From Oscillospiraceae bacterium (GTDB lineage: Bacteria; Bacillota; Clostridia; Oscillospirales; Acutalibacteraceae), in contig SVQH01000009.1 of the NCBI GenBank assembly GCA_015065425.1, forward strand, positions 28,641 through 92,640: 64,000 nucleotides of DNA. The letters run 5' to 3'. A program made the position numbers and the translations under genes. The notes under the pieces were generated by a model, which saw only the letters and a list, made by a program, of their open reading frames with translations, was not told the origin of the DNA and made no database searches. Shown here piece after piece: positions 19,628 through 25,642 of the stretch. How positions within the stretch are numbered: position 1 is the stretch's first letter; every line of letters begins with the position of its first letter.

Positions 19628-20719
19628 ATGCCGCCTGTTTCACTTATGATAAAACCCGCATCTTCTTTGTGCAATCTCTCATGTGAATACTGCTTTTACC
19701 GTGATGTTTCAGAACACCGTGAGCATCTCGGTTTTGGCATAATGGAAAAGGAAACTGCAGAGATACTTATAAAAAAAGCCCTCGCTTATGCAGACGGCGA
19801 AAGTGTTGCTTTTGCCTTTCAGGGCGGTGAGCCAACTCTTGCAGGACTTGATTTTTTTAAGTATTTTGTTGAAACGGTAAAAAAGTTCAATGAAAAGCAC
19901 AGTCCTGTTTTTTACGGAATGCAGACCAACGGAACCGTAATTGACAGAGAATGGGCGGCATTTCTTCATGAAAATTCTTTTCTTGTGGGGTTGAGCCTTG
20001 ACGGGGACTATGAAGGAAACAAATTCAGAAAAAAGCCTTCGGGGCAGAACTCTTTTTATAAAATAGTTTCCTGTGCCGAGCTTCTTAAAAAGCATAAGGT
20101 GGATTTTAATATTCTTACTGTTCTCACGGGCTTTTGTGCCGAAAACGGTGAGAGGATATATAAGTATTTCCGTGGCAAAGGCTTTCGTTATCTTCAGTTT
20201 ATTCCCTGTCTTCGTCCCTTCGGTTCGGACGAAAAAAGTGAGCTTTATATGACAGCGGAGCAATACGGAGATTTTCTGATAAAGGTTTTTAATCTCTATG
20301 TCAAAGACTATGTACGTCATGAGTATGTAAGTATCAGGCAATTTGATAACTGGGTGCGTTCATATCTGAGGCAGCCTACCGAACAGTGCGGAATTATGGG
20401 GCATTGCACACATCAGTATGTATCGGAAGCCAACGGAAATATATATCCCTGTGATTTTTACTGTACAGATGAGTATTTTCTCGGAAACATAAAAGACACC
20501 GATTTTAACGCAATGGAAAAATCGGAAACTGCAAAAAATTTCATTAAAGAAAGTCTTAAAGTACCCGAAAGATGCAAAAACTGTAATGTCTACGGACTTT
20601 GCAGGGGCGGCGGCTGTAAAAGGACACAGCTCAGCGAAGACTATTGCAGAGCATACAAAAGATTCTTTAATTCATGCCTTCCGCTTTTCAGAGTGTTTAT
20701 AAATGAAAGACCAAACTAA
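19628..20719 (+). CDS. Anaerobic sulfatase-maturating enzyme (radical SAM/SPASM)
   Basis: This 363-residue radical-SAM protein oxidises the active-site Cys of sulfatases to formylglycine without oxygen. The radical cluster motif is C15-x3-C19-x2-C22 (SSLCNLSCEYCFYRDV). FAFQGGEPTLAGLDFF (the GGEP motif) and SLDGDYEGN also fit. The C-terminal SPASM region has CGIMGHCTHQYVSEANG, IYPCDFYCTDEY, then CKNCNVYGLCRGGGCKR, the Cys set for two extra [4Fe-4S] clusters. Length and motif order match anSME enzymes. It is directly downstream of a Cys-type sulfatase, its expected substrate. Confidence 0.93.
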   Translation: MPPVSLMIKPASSLCNLSCEYCFYRDVSEHREHLGFGIMEKETAEILIKKALAYADGESVAFAFQGGEPTLAGLDFFKYFVETVKKFNEKHSPVFYGMQTNGTVIDREWAAFLHENSFLVGLSLDGDYEGNKFRKKPSGQNSFYKIVSCAELLKKHKVDFNILTVLTGFCAENGERIYKYFRGKGFRYLQFIPCLRPFGSDEKSELYMTAEQYGDFLIKVFNLYVKDYVRHEYVSIRQFDNWVRSYLRQPTEQCGIMGHCTHQYVSEANGNIYPCDFYCTDEYFLGNIKDTDFNAMEKSETAKNFIKESLKVPERCKNCNVYGLCRGGGCKRTQLSEDYCRAYKRFFNSCLPLFRVFINERPN

Positions 20720-20725
20720 AAAACT

Positions 20726-21114
20726 CAGCACATTTTAGTGTGATACTCCAAGCAAAGTATCACGCAACTCTGTTCACCTACGGCGAGTTGTATTGCTACG
20801 CAGTGTTATTCGGCTTTCAGCCGAGTGTTATTTGCTTCGCAAGTTACGGGCGAATAGAATATCACTAAGTCCCAAGGACTTAATATCACTTTCGCGAACG
20901 CGAAAATATCACGCTGACTTTAGTCAGCATATCACTTAACATACAAAATGAAAGAGAAGGCTCGTTACTAAACGAATCTTCTCTTTTCTGTTGGTAGTGG
21001 GTTTGGGCTACTGCCCAACTGCATTTGTACATACAAATGCGATGCTGGTTCTTCTTAACAAGAATTGAAAGAATTTTCAAATCCTCCGCTAAGGACATCA
21101 CACTTTTGGTGCTG
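20726..21114. repeat. Hairpin-array element A with terminal inverted repeats (MITE-like)
   Basis: No credible gene lies here. The ends are imperfect inverted repeats: CAGCACATTTTAGTGTGAT (20726-20744) and ATCACACTTTTGGTGCTG (21097-21114), with outward A6/T6 tracts. Between them are at least a dozen short perfect hairpins, for example CGGCT/AGCCG (20811-20823), AAGTCC/GGACTT (20867-20881), TTTCGCG/CGCGAAA (20890-20905), GCTGACT/AGTCAGC (20913-20928), GCATTTGTA/TACAAATGC (21021-21040) and TTGAAA/TTTCAA (21065-21080). In the left half they are separated by a recurring TATCAC or similar linker. A 9-bp plus 5-bp stem lies at 20951-20986. It resembles a miniature inverted-repeat element or a highly structured RNA. 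A similar element lies at 25276-25547. Confidence 0.7.
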
Positions 21115-21122
21115 TGCTTTTT

Positions 21123-23573
21123 TCATACTATTGTATACGCGGTAAGAGAAATGTCATCACATTTTTTATCTGTTGCAGGTCTGAAGAAAATCTTTCTTGT
21201 TTCCCCCGGAAGAAGGGAAAAGTAATTATCGCTGAAAATAAATTCTCCTTCCAGTTCAACTGCGTGTGTATATTTATCTGAATACACGGTTATGCTGTTT
21301 TCGGTTTTTTCAGTAACCGTAAGACTGTTACAGGGAACAAGGGGGAGTGTACCGTCTTTATAAAATGAGCGGTCATGTCCGTTTTTATAATATGCATCAC
21401 ATATAACAATGGCATCTTCGGGAATTACTTGAAGGGGAAGCGAGAGAACCTTTTGTGATTCTTGCCTTTGTGAAATTACATCGAATTCTCTTATATCTGT
21501 AAGCTTTTCAGCTTTAAGATATGATATCTTAAGGGTGATTTCTTCATTTTCAAGAGAATCGTTGCAGACATATATATTATATCCGTCTTTTTTATCAATG
21601 GAGGTAATAATGTTACCTGCACAGCGTTTGAAACTGTAAAAAGAAGCCTTCGGCAGACAGTAATAATCTACAAAAGCCCATCCGCTTGAAGCCGGCCAGC
21701 AGTCGTTCCACATCCAGTAAACGATACCGTTTATAAAGCCTCTGTTTCTGCGGATATTTTCCATCGATATCCTTATCCACTCATACTGGATATACTTCAT
21801 CTTGAAATAGCGGTCATGTCCGTCTGTAAAATCTCCCGTAACCTTCTTTGTAAAGTTGAGAAGAACATCAAACAGTGAAAATGAAAGTGCAGGATTACTT
21901 TTTGTGTGATAATTCCACATATCATCACTTTCATATATGTCCTCATCTGTCATGAATTTTCTGAGAGAGGGGAGAGATACCGCTCCGGTTGTGGGTTCTT
22001 CCGCAATAAAACGGGCGAGATATTGTGAAAAATGTTCCTTATAATCTTTCATGTCGCTGTCCATTATGTAGGGGAATATGGAACAGCCGAGATACTGTGT
22101 GTTATGTGTCGTACCTGCTGTTTTTGATGCATAGGGAGTGCCGCCGCAGGGACTTGAAAGCAGAAAACGGCGTTTCGGGTCAAGGCGGTTGAGAACAGGG
22201 AAAATACCCTTGTGTATGGCTGTTCTGCCGTGATAATCCTCGGCTTCGTCAAAGCCGTTTACAGCATTTTCATTGTCTCCCGACCACCACATAAGACAGG
22301 GATGATTTCTTAAGGCAAGGGCTGCAAATTCTGTCTCTTTCTTTATCTGCTCTATAAAAGAATCTTCATATTCGGGATAATCTCCGCATGCCATAAGAAA
22401 ATCCTGAGTAACAAGAATACCGAGCCTGTCACATTCATTGTAAAAATGCTGCTTTTCAAAAATTCCGCCGCCCCAGACACGAAGCATATTGAGATTTGCT
22501 TCTTTTGCAAGTTCAAGGAGAGTTGTAATCTTTTCGTCTGTTTCTTCCGACAAAAGGGGTTCTGAAGGTACCCAGTTTGCCCCCTTGCACATGACGGGAA
22601 TGTTATTGACAATCAACTGAAAACCTGAAAATTCCTCGTTTCTGTCATATTCTCTGCCGCTTATAGAGTCTTTGATTTCAATGCATTTATTATAATATGG
22701 GCTGCCTTCTTTGTCGGGAAGCTCCGATATATGCACTGTCCTTATACCGAAGATGAATTCTCTGCCGCAGAGAATAAGCTTATATAGGGGCTGCTTACCC
22801 AGTCCTGCAGGATACCACAGCTTTGCATCGGGTATATTGATGTAAGTTTTAAGATAGTTTTCTTTTCTGAAAAAACGGTGTTTATAGATGCTTTTGCCGT
22901 CGGGAGAGATAATTTCCATGTCTGCAAAAGCACCGTTTTCATATCCTGAAAATTCAGCTTCTACAACAATTTCTGCCCATTTGTCACTGATGCATTCGGT
23001 ATATATGTATGCATTTTCAACTTTGAAGCCGTCGGAGGTGTCTATATATACATCTCTCCATATACCGCAGGTTACATATCTTGCCACCCAGTCCCAGCCG
23101 TAGGTACACTGAATCCTCCTTGTATGCATTCTCTCGCAGGTAAATGCTCCCGGACAGTGGGGAAGTCCTTCAACAGTTTTTACGGGAGAGTGAAAACAAA
23201 CACTGAGGAGATTTTCTCCTTCACTGAGATATTCTGCAATGTCAAAAGAGTGAGAAATGAACATATTGTCGGTCTTTCCGAGAAGATTGCCGTTCAGATA
23301 TATATCACAGTATGTATCAAGTCCTTCAAAAACCAGCTTTGCTGTTTTCGGTTTTTGTTCCATCCGGAATACCTTTGAATATTCCCAGTCCTTTTCTTCT
23401 ATCCATTGGCATTTGTCTGTATTGTCACGGTAATATATATCTTCCGGTATCCTTATCCCCTTAAGATCCGAATGCACACAGCCGGGAACCGTTGCATTGA
23501 AAGAGAATTCTGTTGATTTGTCTGAATCAATACATTTACCGAGCCAGATGCCGTTAAGATTTATTTTTTTCAT
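21123..23573 (-). CDS. GH2 beta-mannosidase
   Basis: This 816-residue enzyme begins with the GH2 sugar-binding domain (NLNGIWLGKCIDSD; LVFEGLDTYCDIYLNGNLLG). It continues through RIQCTYGWDWVARYVTCGIW, a strong beta-mannosidase marker, to the TIM barrel with MLRVWGGGIFEKQHFYNECD. The acid/base Glu is in LMWWSGDNENAV and the likely nucleophile Glu is in FIAEEPTTGA. It releases mannose from beta-mannosides such as those from N-glycans or mannans. No signal peptide is present, so it should be cytoplasmic. It has its own promoter and no adjacent sugar transporter. Length is normal for the family. Confidence 0.9.
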   Translation of the reverse strand: MKKINLNGIWLGKCIDSDKSTEFSFNATVPGCVHSDLKGIRIPEDIYYRDNTDKCQWIEEKDWEYSKVFRMEQKPKTAKLVFEGLDTYCDIYLNGNLLGKTDNMFISHSFDIAEYLSEGENLLSVCFHSPVKTVEGLPHCPGAFTCERMHTRRIQCTYGWDWVARYVTCGIWRDVYIDTSDGFKVENAYIYTECISDKWAEIVVEAEFSGYENGAFADMEIISPDGKSIYKHRFFRKENYLKTYINIPDAKLWYPAGLGKQPLYKLILCGREFIFGIRTVHISELPDKEGSPYYNKCIEIKDSISGREYDRNEEFSGFQLIVNNIPVMCKGANWVPSEPLLSEETDEKITTLLELAKEANLNMLRVWGGGIFEKQHFYNECDRLGILVTQDFLMACGDYPEYEDSFIEQIKKETEFAALALRNHPCLMWWSGDNENAVNGFDEAEDYHGRTAIHKGIFPVLNRLDPKRRFLLSSPCGGTPYASKTAGTTHNTQYLGCSIFPYIMDSDMKDYKEHFSQYLARFIAEEPTTGAVSLPSLRKFMTDEDIYESDDMWNYHTKSNPALSFSLFDVLLNFTKKVTGDFTDGHDRYFKMKYIQYEWIRISMENIRRNRGFINGIVYWMWNDCWPASSGWAFVDYYCLPKASFYSFKRCAGNIITSIDKKDGYNIYVCNDSLENEEITLKISYLKAEKLTDIREFDVISQRQESQKVLSLPLQVIPEDAIVICDAYYKNGHDRSFYKDGTLPLVPCNSLTVTEKTENSITVYSDKYTHAVELEGEFIFSDNYFSLLPGETRKIFFRPATDKKCDDISLTAYTIV

Positions 23574-25275: not shown

Positions 25276-25547
25276 GGCATTTGCGAATGCCTTTGAAATC
25301 TAACAAAAAATGATATATTGCTAAGCAATATGATATACTTGCTACACAAAATGTGATATTGAAACCTGCGGTTTCAGTAATACTCAATAAGGTGCATAGC
25401 ACCGTCATTCTTCGTAGCAAGATGTATCTTGCGGAGAAATATTTGCCCCTAACTGCCCGAAGGGCAATAACACTTGCGAAGCAATATAACTCGCCACAAG
25501 GCGAATATAACTGAAAACGACAAGTTTCTGTGAAACTTGTCGTTTTC
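25276..25547. repeat. Hairpin-array element B downstream of the serine tRNAs
   Basis: This noncoding stretch holds a series of perfect hairpins: GGCATT/AATGCC (25276-25291), ATATTGC/GCAATAT (25315-25331), TGAAACC/GGTTTCA (25360-25376), GGTGC/GCACC (25391-25403), GCAAGAT/ATCTTGC (25417-25432), TGCCC/GGGCA (25454-25466), TTGC/GCAA (25474-25484) and TCGCC/GGCGA (25491-25504). It ends in a 15-bp stem, GAAAACGACAAGTTT / AAACTTGTCGTTTTC (25513-25547). Linkers are AT-rich and similar (TGATAT, AATAACAC, AATATAAC). The final stem lies two bases from the tRNA end and may stop tRNA transcription. It is the same class as the element at 20726-21114, but I see no clear terminal inverted repeat. The bases from 25199 to 25275 show nothing else. 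Confidence 0.7.
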
Positions 25548-25548
25548 A

Positions 25549-25642
25549 TGGCGGAGCAGGAGAGACTCGAACTCTCGCACCGGGGATTAGCCAGCCTACG
25601 CCCTTAGCAGGGGCGCCTCGTCACCAACTTGAGTACTGCTCC
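25549..25642 (-). tRNA. tRNA-Ser(GCT)
   Basis: On the minus strand the acceptor stem is GGAGCAG (from 25642) paired with CTGCTCC, then G and an encoded CCA. The anticodon loop CTGCTAAG has anticodon GCT, reading AGC and AGT. A long variable arm gives 94 bases, as expected for a class II serine tRNA. GAGTTCGAGTC forms the T loop. Confidence 0.95.

Follow-up and report, generated by a model that had tools for sequence, protein, structure and literature searches.

A hairpin array of about 370 bp between convergent genes of an Oscillospiraceae genome is very probably a non-autonomous mobile element in a terminator loop

The window, i.e., the whole stretch of 64,000 nucleotides analyzed here (G000:C50:28641-92640), belongs to the 2.79 Mb draft genome of an Oscillospiraceae bacterium (G000), which consists of 59 contigs. 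It contains a hairpin array located between an open reading frame ending at position 20719 on the plus strand and a convergent one ending at position 21123 on the minus strand. The locus is composed of the following features:

19628..20719, plus strand: upstream host gene from the ORF list, ending at the terminator; we take its product to be radical SAM / anaerobic sulfatase-maturase-like
20718..20731, plus strand: left arm, AAAAAACTCAGCAC, of the apparent host terminator that the element interrupts; its pairing partner is 21109-21123 (score 21, rank 8 of 51)
20738..20765, plus strand: hairpin GTGTGATACTC..GTATCACGC at the left end of the element; several intact copies show an apex complementary to their right end
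20770..20857, plus strand: left half of the array, in which the stem CTGTTCACC/GGGCGAATAG surrounds small hairpins with GTGTTATT-like linkers
20858..20937, minus strand: right half of the array, in which four TATCAC linkers alternate with three hairpins; matches the Gut-1 model on the minus strand
20944..20993, no strand assigned: conserved hairpin GAAAGAGAAG..CTTCTCTTTTC, an inverted repeat, terminator-like by eye
20997..21052, plus strand: right-hand module GTGGGTTTGGGC..GATGCTGGTTCT; 21021-21052 are 97% identical to 32 nt of copy L315
21084..21103, plus strand: right end of the element, CTCCGCTAAGGACATCACAC; similar right ends are seen by eye in type A copies
21109..21123, plus strand: right arm of the apparent host terminator with T-tract, GTGCTGTGCTTTTTT; pairs with the left arm
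21123..23573, minus strand: convergent downstream host gene from the ORF list; its product is presumably glycoside-hydrolase-like

The first-pass annotation had described a dozen perfect hairpins within some 390 bases, to which no protein could be fitted. Folding of the array (416 nt) yielded z-scores of −7.36 as DNA and −6.98 as RNA, with none of 100 shuffled sequences folding as well, and about a dozen local hairpins were counted by eye in 20738-21080; some of these are imperfect, so the number of hairpins stands but not the perfection of all of them. The lack of a protein was borne out, since no ORF of 80 or more amino acids lies wholly inside the element. The recurring TATCAC-like linker is present in its exact form only in the middle of the array (20860-20935, four copies), where the three linker-hairpin-linker matches of the window compare with 0.13 expected. 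In the left part, which is enclosed by a stem of 20770-20778 with 20848-20857 (by eye), the linker is reverse-oriented (GTGTTATT-like) and thus opposite in direction to the right half, and the right third of the window copy contains no linker of the TATCAC type. An inverted-repeat search with default settings reported only one pair (20944-20966/20971-20993) because most stems are shorter than the search minimum. The hairpin formed by this pair recurs by eye in copies L009-L011, L051, L052 and L066. It is not among the three terminator-like sites predicted in a computed scan (0.5 expected), all of which are array hairpins differing from those picked by eye.

The matching inverted ends with outward T-tracts, read initially as one pair, turned out to be two nested pairs, consisting of terminator-like host arms with their A-tract and T-tract and of the element's own ends. 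The latter pair imperfectly, with a mean score of 17.9 in 27 copies, compared to 15.1 with the ends of other copies and 12.8 with random sequences. The inverted pair CAGCAC..GTGCTG is most likely the host terminator rather than an end of the element.

A search for further copies gave 14 BLAST matches to the window element in its own genome and 23 sites once these were merged by position with the matches to the Gut-1 RNA model (see below). A pattern of two TATCAC motifs spaced by 8 to 30 nt matched 61 times in this genome versus twice in its reversed form, although by eye not all of these matches are hairpins. In the collection search, whose genome counts are lower bounds, the element matched in at least 16 of 59 genomes including its own, namely, apart from its own, in at least 5 of the 25 genomes of other species within the genus, at least 2 of the 10 genomes from other genera of the family and at least 8 of the 23 genomes from other families; no match was found in the phage and plasmid collections. 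All genomes are drafts, and several copies sit at contig ends. This patchy spread is what a mobile element gives, which was one of the options raised by the first-pass annotation. Because the stems are nearly perfect, as copying by template switching would produce, and because the modules are mosaic (the right-hand one is inverted in L069, by eye), we also considered that terminator palindromes expand in place by replication slippage and template switching, without any insertion. We regard this as very improbable, because copies at unrelated loci share 82–84% identity over about 340–370 nt, even between families (83–84% over about 340–360 nt in G045, a member of another family), and also share genes inside the elements, which requires transfer; template switching may still shape the stems after insertion. 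Within G000, the arrays L148, L151, L167 and 25291-25513 carry a common piece (about CCGCAAGATACATCTTGCTACGAAGAATGACGGTGC) in place of the array middle, making them mosaic. In two further copies (L055 and L313, G056:C25), what follows the array is a module related to the right-hand one, together with a short ORF of another kind (MKNQYKITKDLMQTW...), which matches in at least 2 of 197 genomes.

Among copies with different neighbours, the outer arms differ in sequence yet can still pair with each other, and in many cases an A-tract precedes the left arm and a T-tract follows the right one. To quantify this pairing, we kept 78 of 103 anchors, leaving out duplicates and copies less than 100 nt from an end, and used the 51 copies from 13 genomes that contained the left hairpin and at least 480 nt of right flank. 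The mean pairing score of each left flank with its own right flank was 24.1 versus 18.2 for swapped flanks, and none of 20,000 permutations reached the observed mean of 24.1 (largest 20.06); scores of 26 or more were obtained for 22 of the 51 own pairs but only for 1.6% of the swaps, and in 16 copies the own right flank was the best of all 51. The pairing of the window copy is modest at its score of 21. By eye, clear arms are present in about 27 of the 51 copies, a selection which leaves out L071 (score 26) and L166 (23) and includes the window copy and L269 (21), and in which the best-scoring arm of L069 and L077 may belong to a second terminator. The other 24 or so copies have no clear arms, and by our reading some of them are decayed, truncated or placed otherwise. 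In L069 and L077, a second whole terminator lies past the element as a near-exact repeat of the split arm, which could be a target duplication. With ORFs of at least 90 codons called mechanically, 25 of the 27 clear copies have an ORF on the same strand that terminates no more than 200 nt upstream (no more than 54 nt in 23), and the downstream ORF is convergent in 22 and tandem in 5. When the flanks of the copies from G000 were joined without the element, most of them, including those of the window copy, rebuilt terminator-like hairpins by eye. We therefore read the outermost stem as a probable host terminator with the element lodged in its loop.

An empty site was sought by comparing eight joined flanks with 25 other genomes of the genus. 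One of them matched across the join, in two sister species, and the other seven gave no empty site. At this site, G000 contains copy L167 as AAGCAGAC, about 415 nt and GTCTGCATTTTTTGTTGCC, with the insert between GCAGAC and GTCTGC, whereas genome G013, in which homologues of both neighbouring genes flank the site, reads ATGCAGACAG-AAAA-CTGTCTGCATTTTTT (also given as ATGCAGACAG-AAAA-CTGTCTGCATTTTTTGTTGCC). Because G013 has a tetraloop where G000 holds about 415 nt, the insert seems to have replaced the small loop of a tetraloop terminator. The second genome, G019, has a different terminator without the insert. No target-site duplication or exact junction was obtained from this comparison, as the orthologous site is too diverged to place junctions. 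A third genome, G006, carries about 1 kb of other small genes at the corresponding site (L225, G006:C55:29800-31500), by eye for a regulator, a nucleotidyltransferase-like and a HEPN-like protein. Copy L149 was rejected for this comparison, because the gap in the relatives holds another ORF (by eye a phosphopantetheinyl transferase). The joined flanks of two gene-bearing copies (see below) matched nowhere across the join in 70 and 6 genomes, source genomes included, and in none of the other 69 and 5 genomes did the two flanks lie close together on a single contig. Of 70 loci with orthologues of the upstream gene in named genomes, 25 were inspected over the 230 nt that follow this gene, and none of them shows an array there by eye; since the downstream gene was not found in any of the 25, they do not count as clean empty sites. 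Array pieces occur elsewhere at two loci of the named genomes (L082 and L091).

The first-pass annotation had also considered a structured RNA, and the array indeed resembles the Gut-1 motif of Rfam (RF01706). The model matched the minus strand at 20854-20937 with 44.7 bits (E = 1.4e-7), which is below its gathering score of 50, and more weakly the plus strand at 20765-20836 (24.5 bits). At the gathering threshold, the only Rfam matches in the whole window were two tRNAs; four further permissive matches (E = 0.3–2.6) were taken as chance. At E <= 1, Gut-1 had 25 matches in G000, 3 of them above the cut-off, a list that omits the window copy and is therefore a lower bound, and 4 of 14 control genomes also gave matches at this level, none above the cut-off. 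At E <= 1e-6, at least 115 of 295 genomes of the order contained Gut-1 matches (at least 103 above the cut-off), as opposed to none of the 14 controls. A second array of the same kind with Gut-1 matches on both strands lies at 25291-25513 (minus strand), directly 3' of a tRNA gene (25552-25642, minus strand, tRNA-Ser by eye) and its terminator-like hairpin. Other Gut-1 copies seen by eye 3' of tRNA or tmRNA genes are L174, L177, L179, L180, L182, L183, L186-L188 and L191; they are high-scoring, have the linker GTGAAAT/ATTTCAC and lie just past the terminator T-tract rather than in the terminator.

We aligned 25 of 44 listed arrays, omitting those with insertions or deletions and near-duplicates, and analyzed the hairpins of the window copy for covariation. 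Changes on both sides were found in 25 of 39 pairs, adding up to 134 cells versus 39.2 in shuffles, and 89.8% of the cells were paired versus 73.5% (none of 500 shuffles reached either value), while further pair types amounted to 43 versus 37.0 (12 of 500 shuffles). Sliding the partners lowered every measure. Because the arrays are related by descent, the shuffles overstate the significance, and one helix of the alignment is misaligned (48% paired). The proposal that structure rather than sequence is selected is consistent with the stems; the linker columns depart from it in being invariant or nearly so across the 25 arrays. Our filter accepted 138 of the 156 distinct segments flanked by ATATCAC-type linkers as hairpins. 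Their positions comprise 705 Watson-Crick pairs, 13 G-T pairs and 25 mismatches, compared to 480, 24 and 7 in the acceptor stems of 73 distinct tRNAs from the same loci. G-T pairs are therefore rarer in the array hairpins (13 of 718 vs. 24 of 504; Fisher p = 0.0037 against Watson-Crick pairs), which is only suggestive because the filter itself demands Watson-Crick pairs. A possible explanation is that the hairpins are maintained at the DNA level or that one arm is copied from the other.

Strong covariation and Gut-1 matches would also be expected of a structured non-coding RNA gene with a host function whose RNA fold is under selection, and Weinberg et al. 2010 (PMC2864571) call Gut-1 certainly a biological RNA and place it among those most likely to be non-coding RNAs unaffiliated with mRNAs. 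We nevertheless consider a host RNA improbable for the window element. The matches score on both strands, and even inside the genus the distribution is patchy, with matches in at least 5 of the 25 other species. Subject to the filter mentioned above, G-T pairs are scarcer than mismatches in the hairpins, contrary to the tRNA stems, and the number of promoter-like sites does not exceed chance (1 vs. 1.4 expected). The array thus resembles the Gut-1 motif, but no host RNA function emerged from the analysis, and the case illustrates that covariation by itself is no proof of a host RNA. For the two remaining options of the first-pass annotation, a chromosome-organising site and a protein-binding array, nothing in these results speaks positively.

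Longer relatives of the element carry genes. Copy L058 from G006, a genome of the same genus, is composed of a left arm, the left hairpin, an array, an ORF of 118 amino acids, the right end and the right arm CGGGAGCTTG, with a promoter-like TATAAT and a Shine-Dalgarno sequence seen by eye between array and ORF. Its product (99 residues used) matches the families of the protein (IVP, or IVS protein) that belongs to the intervening sequences (IVSs) of 23S rRNA, PF05635 (23S_rRNA_IVP, 2.9e-26) and TIGR02436 (2.6e-28), the latter a small four-helix bundle, and only weakly the protein Avd of diversity-generating retroelements (NF033474, 0.034). The one solved chain that we found for the IVS protein, 2rld, is an uncharacterised protein, and we know of no enzymatic activity or catalytic site. 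Copy L315 from G214 contains, in order, the arm AAAATAAAAAATCGAAG, the left hairpin, an array, the IVP gene, the module, a methyltransferase-like ORF (by eye), a terminator-like hairpin, the right end and the arm CTTCGATTTTTTATTTT; L316 is laid out in the same way with a different second ORF. All three of these IVP-bearing copies have array and ORF inside terminator-like arms. In a flank test with 10 of 21 gene-bearing loci, L315 and L316 ranked first and L058 sixth, and the other seven were without convincing arms. The mean of these 10 was 27.9 versus 24.4 for swaps (sd 6.7), and because of this weak pairing, terminator arms are established for few gene-bearing copies. Genes for TIGR02436 proteins at E <= 1e-10 occur in at least 85 of 197 genomes of the order but not in G000, so any helper is either absent from that genome or unassembled.

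The right end of the non-coding sibling copy L014 aligns to the sequence that follows immediately on the ORF of L058 (72% over 89 nt, E = 4e-5), and judging from this alignment, L014 looks like an internal deletion of a gene-bearing element. The window copy is probably an internal-deletion derivative as well, because it shares ends, array and module with the gene-bearing elements.

Among the 30 best-scoring IVP loci of the order, inspected by eye, an array lies directly upstream of the gene in 17 and heptamer-like repeats are present in 13. The 17 array-linked loci use about six different linkers. Comparing linkers and proteins for 35 of 38 loci (one was not detected, one too short and one a duplicate), we found 78.1% protein identity within a linker class versus 55.7% between classes for the 15 array-linked loci with a countable linker (none of 5000 label permutations), and the nearest IVP relative had the same linker in 13 of the 15, the two exceptions being the sole members of their class. 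The strict linker-motif count scored several visible arrays, among others L285, L288, L300, L302 and L305, as having none. Common descent of gene and array suffices for this correlation, which leaves binding unproved. In the 13 heptamer loci, the upstream and downstream repeats are, as a group, complementary (47.2 vs. 21.9; none of 10,000 permutations; weak for L286). The genes lying between such inverted repeats are L283, L284, L286, L287, L289-L293, L295, L299, L301 and L309, and the repeats are reminiscent of cyanobacterial STRR repeats. In a sample of the phylum, the IVP gene was present in at least 25 of 149 genomes, and the flanks of the 22 placeable loci out of 30 also paired (37.1 vs. 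19.8; none of 10,000 permutations), 11 of the 22 exceeding the 99th percentile of the swaps.

The repeated copies, their patchy spread, the location of a large share of them in terminator loops, the single empty site, the covarying stems and the gene-bearing relatives lead us to conclude that 20738-21103 is very probably a non-autonomous mobile element of about 370 bp of the IVS-protein kind, situated in the loop of a terminator. Such an element would enter the loop of a bidirectional intrinsic terminator between convergent genes and leave both arms in place. Its longer relatives combine a similar left hairpin, array and right end with a promoter-like sequence (by eye), a gene for the Avd-like IVS protein (PF05635/TIGR02436) and sometimes a second ORF. 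The IVS protein may bind the folded element by its array with constant linkers and bring it to single-stranded or cruciform hairpin loops, either in an extruded DNA palindrome or in an RNA hairpin that is later copied; by analogy, IVSs replacing the tetraloops of 23S rRNA helices would be a parallel case. Terminators would be tolerated as targets since they lie outside coding sequence, so that an insertion harms no gene, and since the element has terminator-like hairpins of its own, which may restore termination.

The element could also be moved by an unlinked enzyme acting in trans, a transposase or reverse transcriptase, with the IVS protein as a passenger or chaperone. We regard this as quite possible, if not quite an even bet, because the IVP resembles Avd, although weakly here, and Avd is essential for retrohoming in diversity-generating retroelements (PMC10053308). 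A small helix bundle without a known catalytic site also fits a helper role, as does the fact that most copies seen are non-coding, with an IVP gene beside few of the fetched array copies. Conversely, the three two-armed gene-bearing elements have by eye no other gene in common, and the array linkers track the protein sequence, even if descent would account for that. Coming back to a mobility role of the IVS protein itself, it appears to us only slightly short of an even chance that S23p/IVP acts as mobility factor for a large class of so far unrecognised elements which insert into hairpin loops and whose target is a folded nucleic-acid loop, not a sequence; rRNA IVSs, Gut-1, terminator-loop arrays and heptamer-flanked IVP genes would be its forms.

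In the open-licence literature, most subscription papers lying outside this search, we found no paper joining Gut-1, the IVS protein and terminator-loop arrays. The Gut-1 model covers half of the array, whose two halves match it on opposite strands, and its 77 positions correspond here to one module of a repeat that spans about 370 bp, or about 1400 bp in the case of L315, with matches on both strands. While the original description reports Gut-1 from the human gut only (Weinberg et al. 2010, PMC2864571), the nearest named relatives of the present host by one gene are Clostridia MAGs, largely from the ruminant gut. The Rfam Gut-1 family can be re-read as part of a mobile element.

MITEs are short, non-coding repeated elements with terminal inverted repeats and longer gene-bearing relatives. 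The window element is likewise short, non-coding and present in several copies in G000, appears to have imperfect terminal inverted repeats and is related to longer gene-bearing elements, but differs in that no transposase gene or target duplication was found. Group IIC introns are also associated with transcription terminators, but they insert after the terminator stem, whereas insertions of the present type appear to lie in the loop. A group II intron was rejected for the window element, since none was detected at the gathering threshold in the window or at E values up to 5 in 20600-21200.

A further likeness in arrangement is that to the IVSs of 23S rRNA, which are excised by RNase III and many of which do not encode S23p/IVP. 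They also lie between complementary arms, occur sporadically and have relatives carrying the same protein family. IVSs replace a small hairpin loop, as the insert of L167 seems to have done; for the window copy, the bearing observation is its flank pairing (score 21, rank 8 of 51). The window element itself encodes no S23p/IVP, while the related L058, L315 and L316 do, and it sits between two protein-coding ORFs, outside the 23S rRNA helices 9, 25 and 45. Here, the host hairpin appears to be a transcription terminator instead of an rRNA helix, the linkers of the hairpin array are constant, a genome can contain many copies, non-coding derivatives exist, and a second ORF is present in L315 and L316. 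The function and origin of 23S rRNA IVSs were described as unclear in a 2016 paper, which also reports an older proposal that the IVS ORF served mobility (PMC4990558). With the same protein family occurring in repeated elements, some of which split terminator hairpins and have non-coding derivatives, the elements described here offer a natural system for that proposal.
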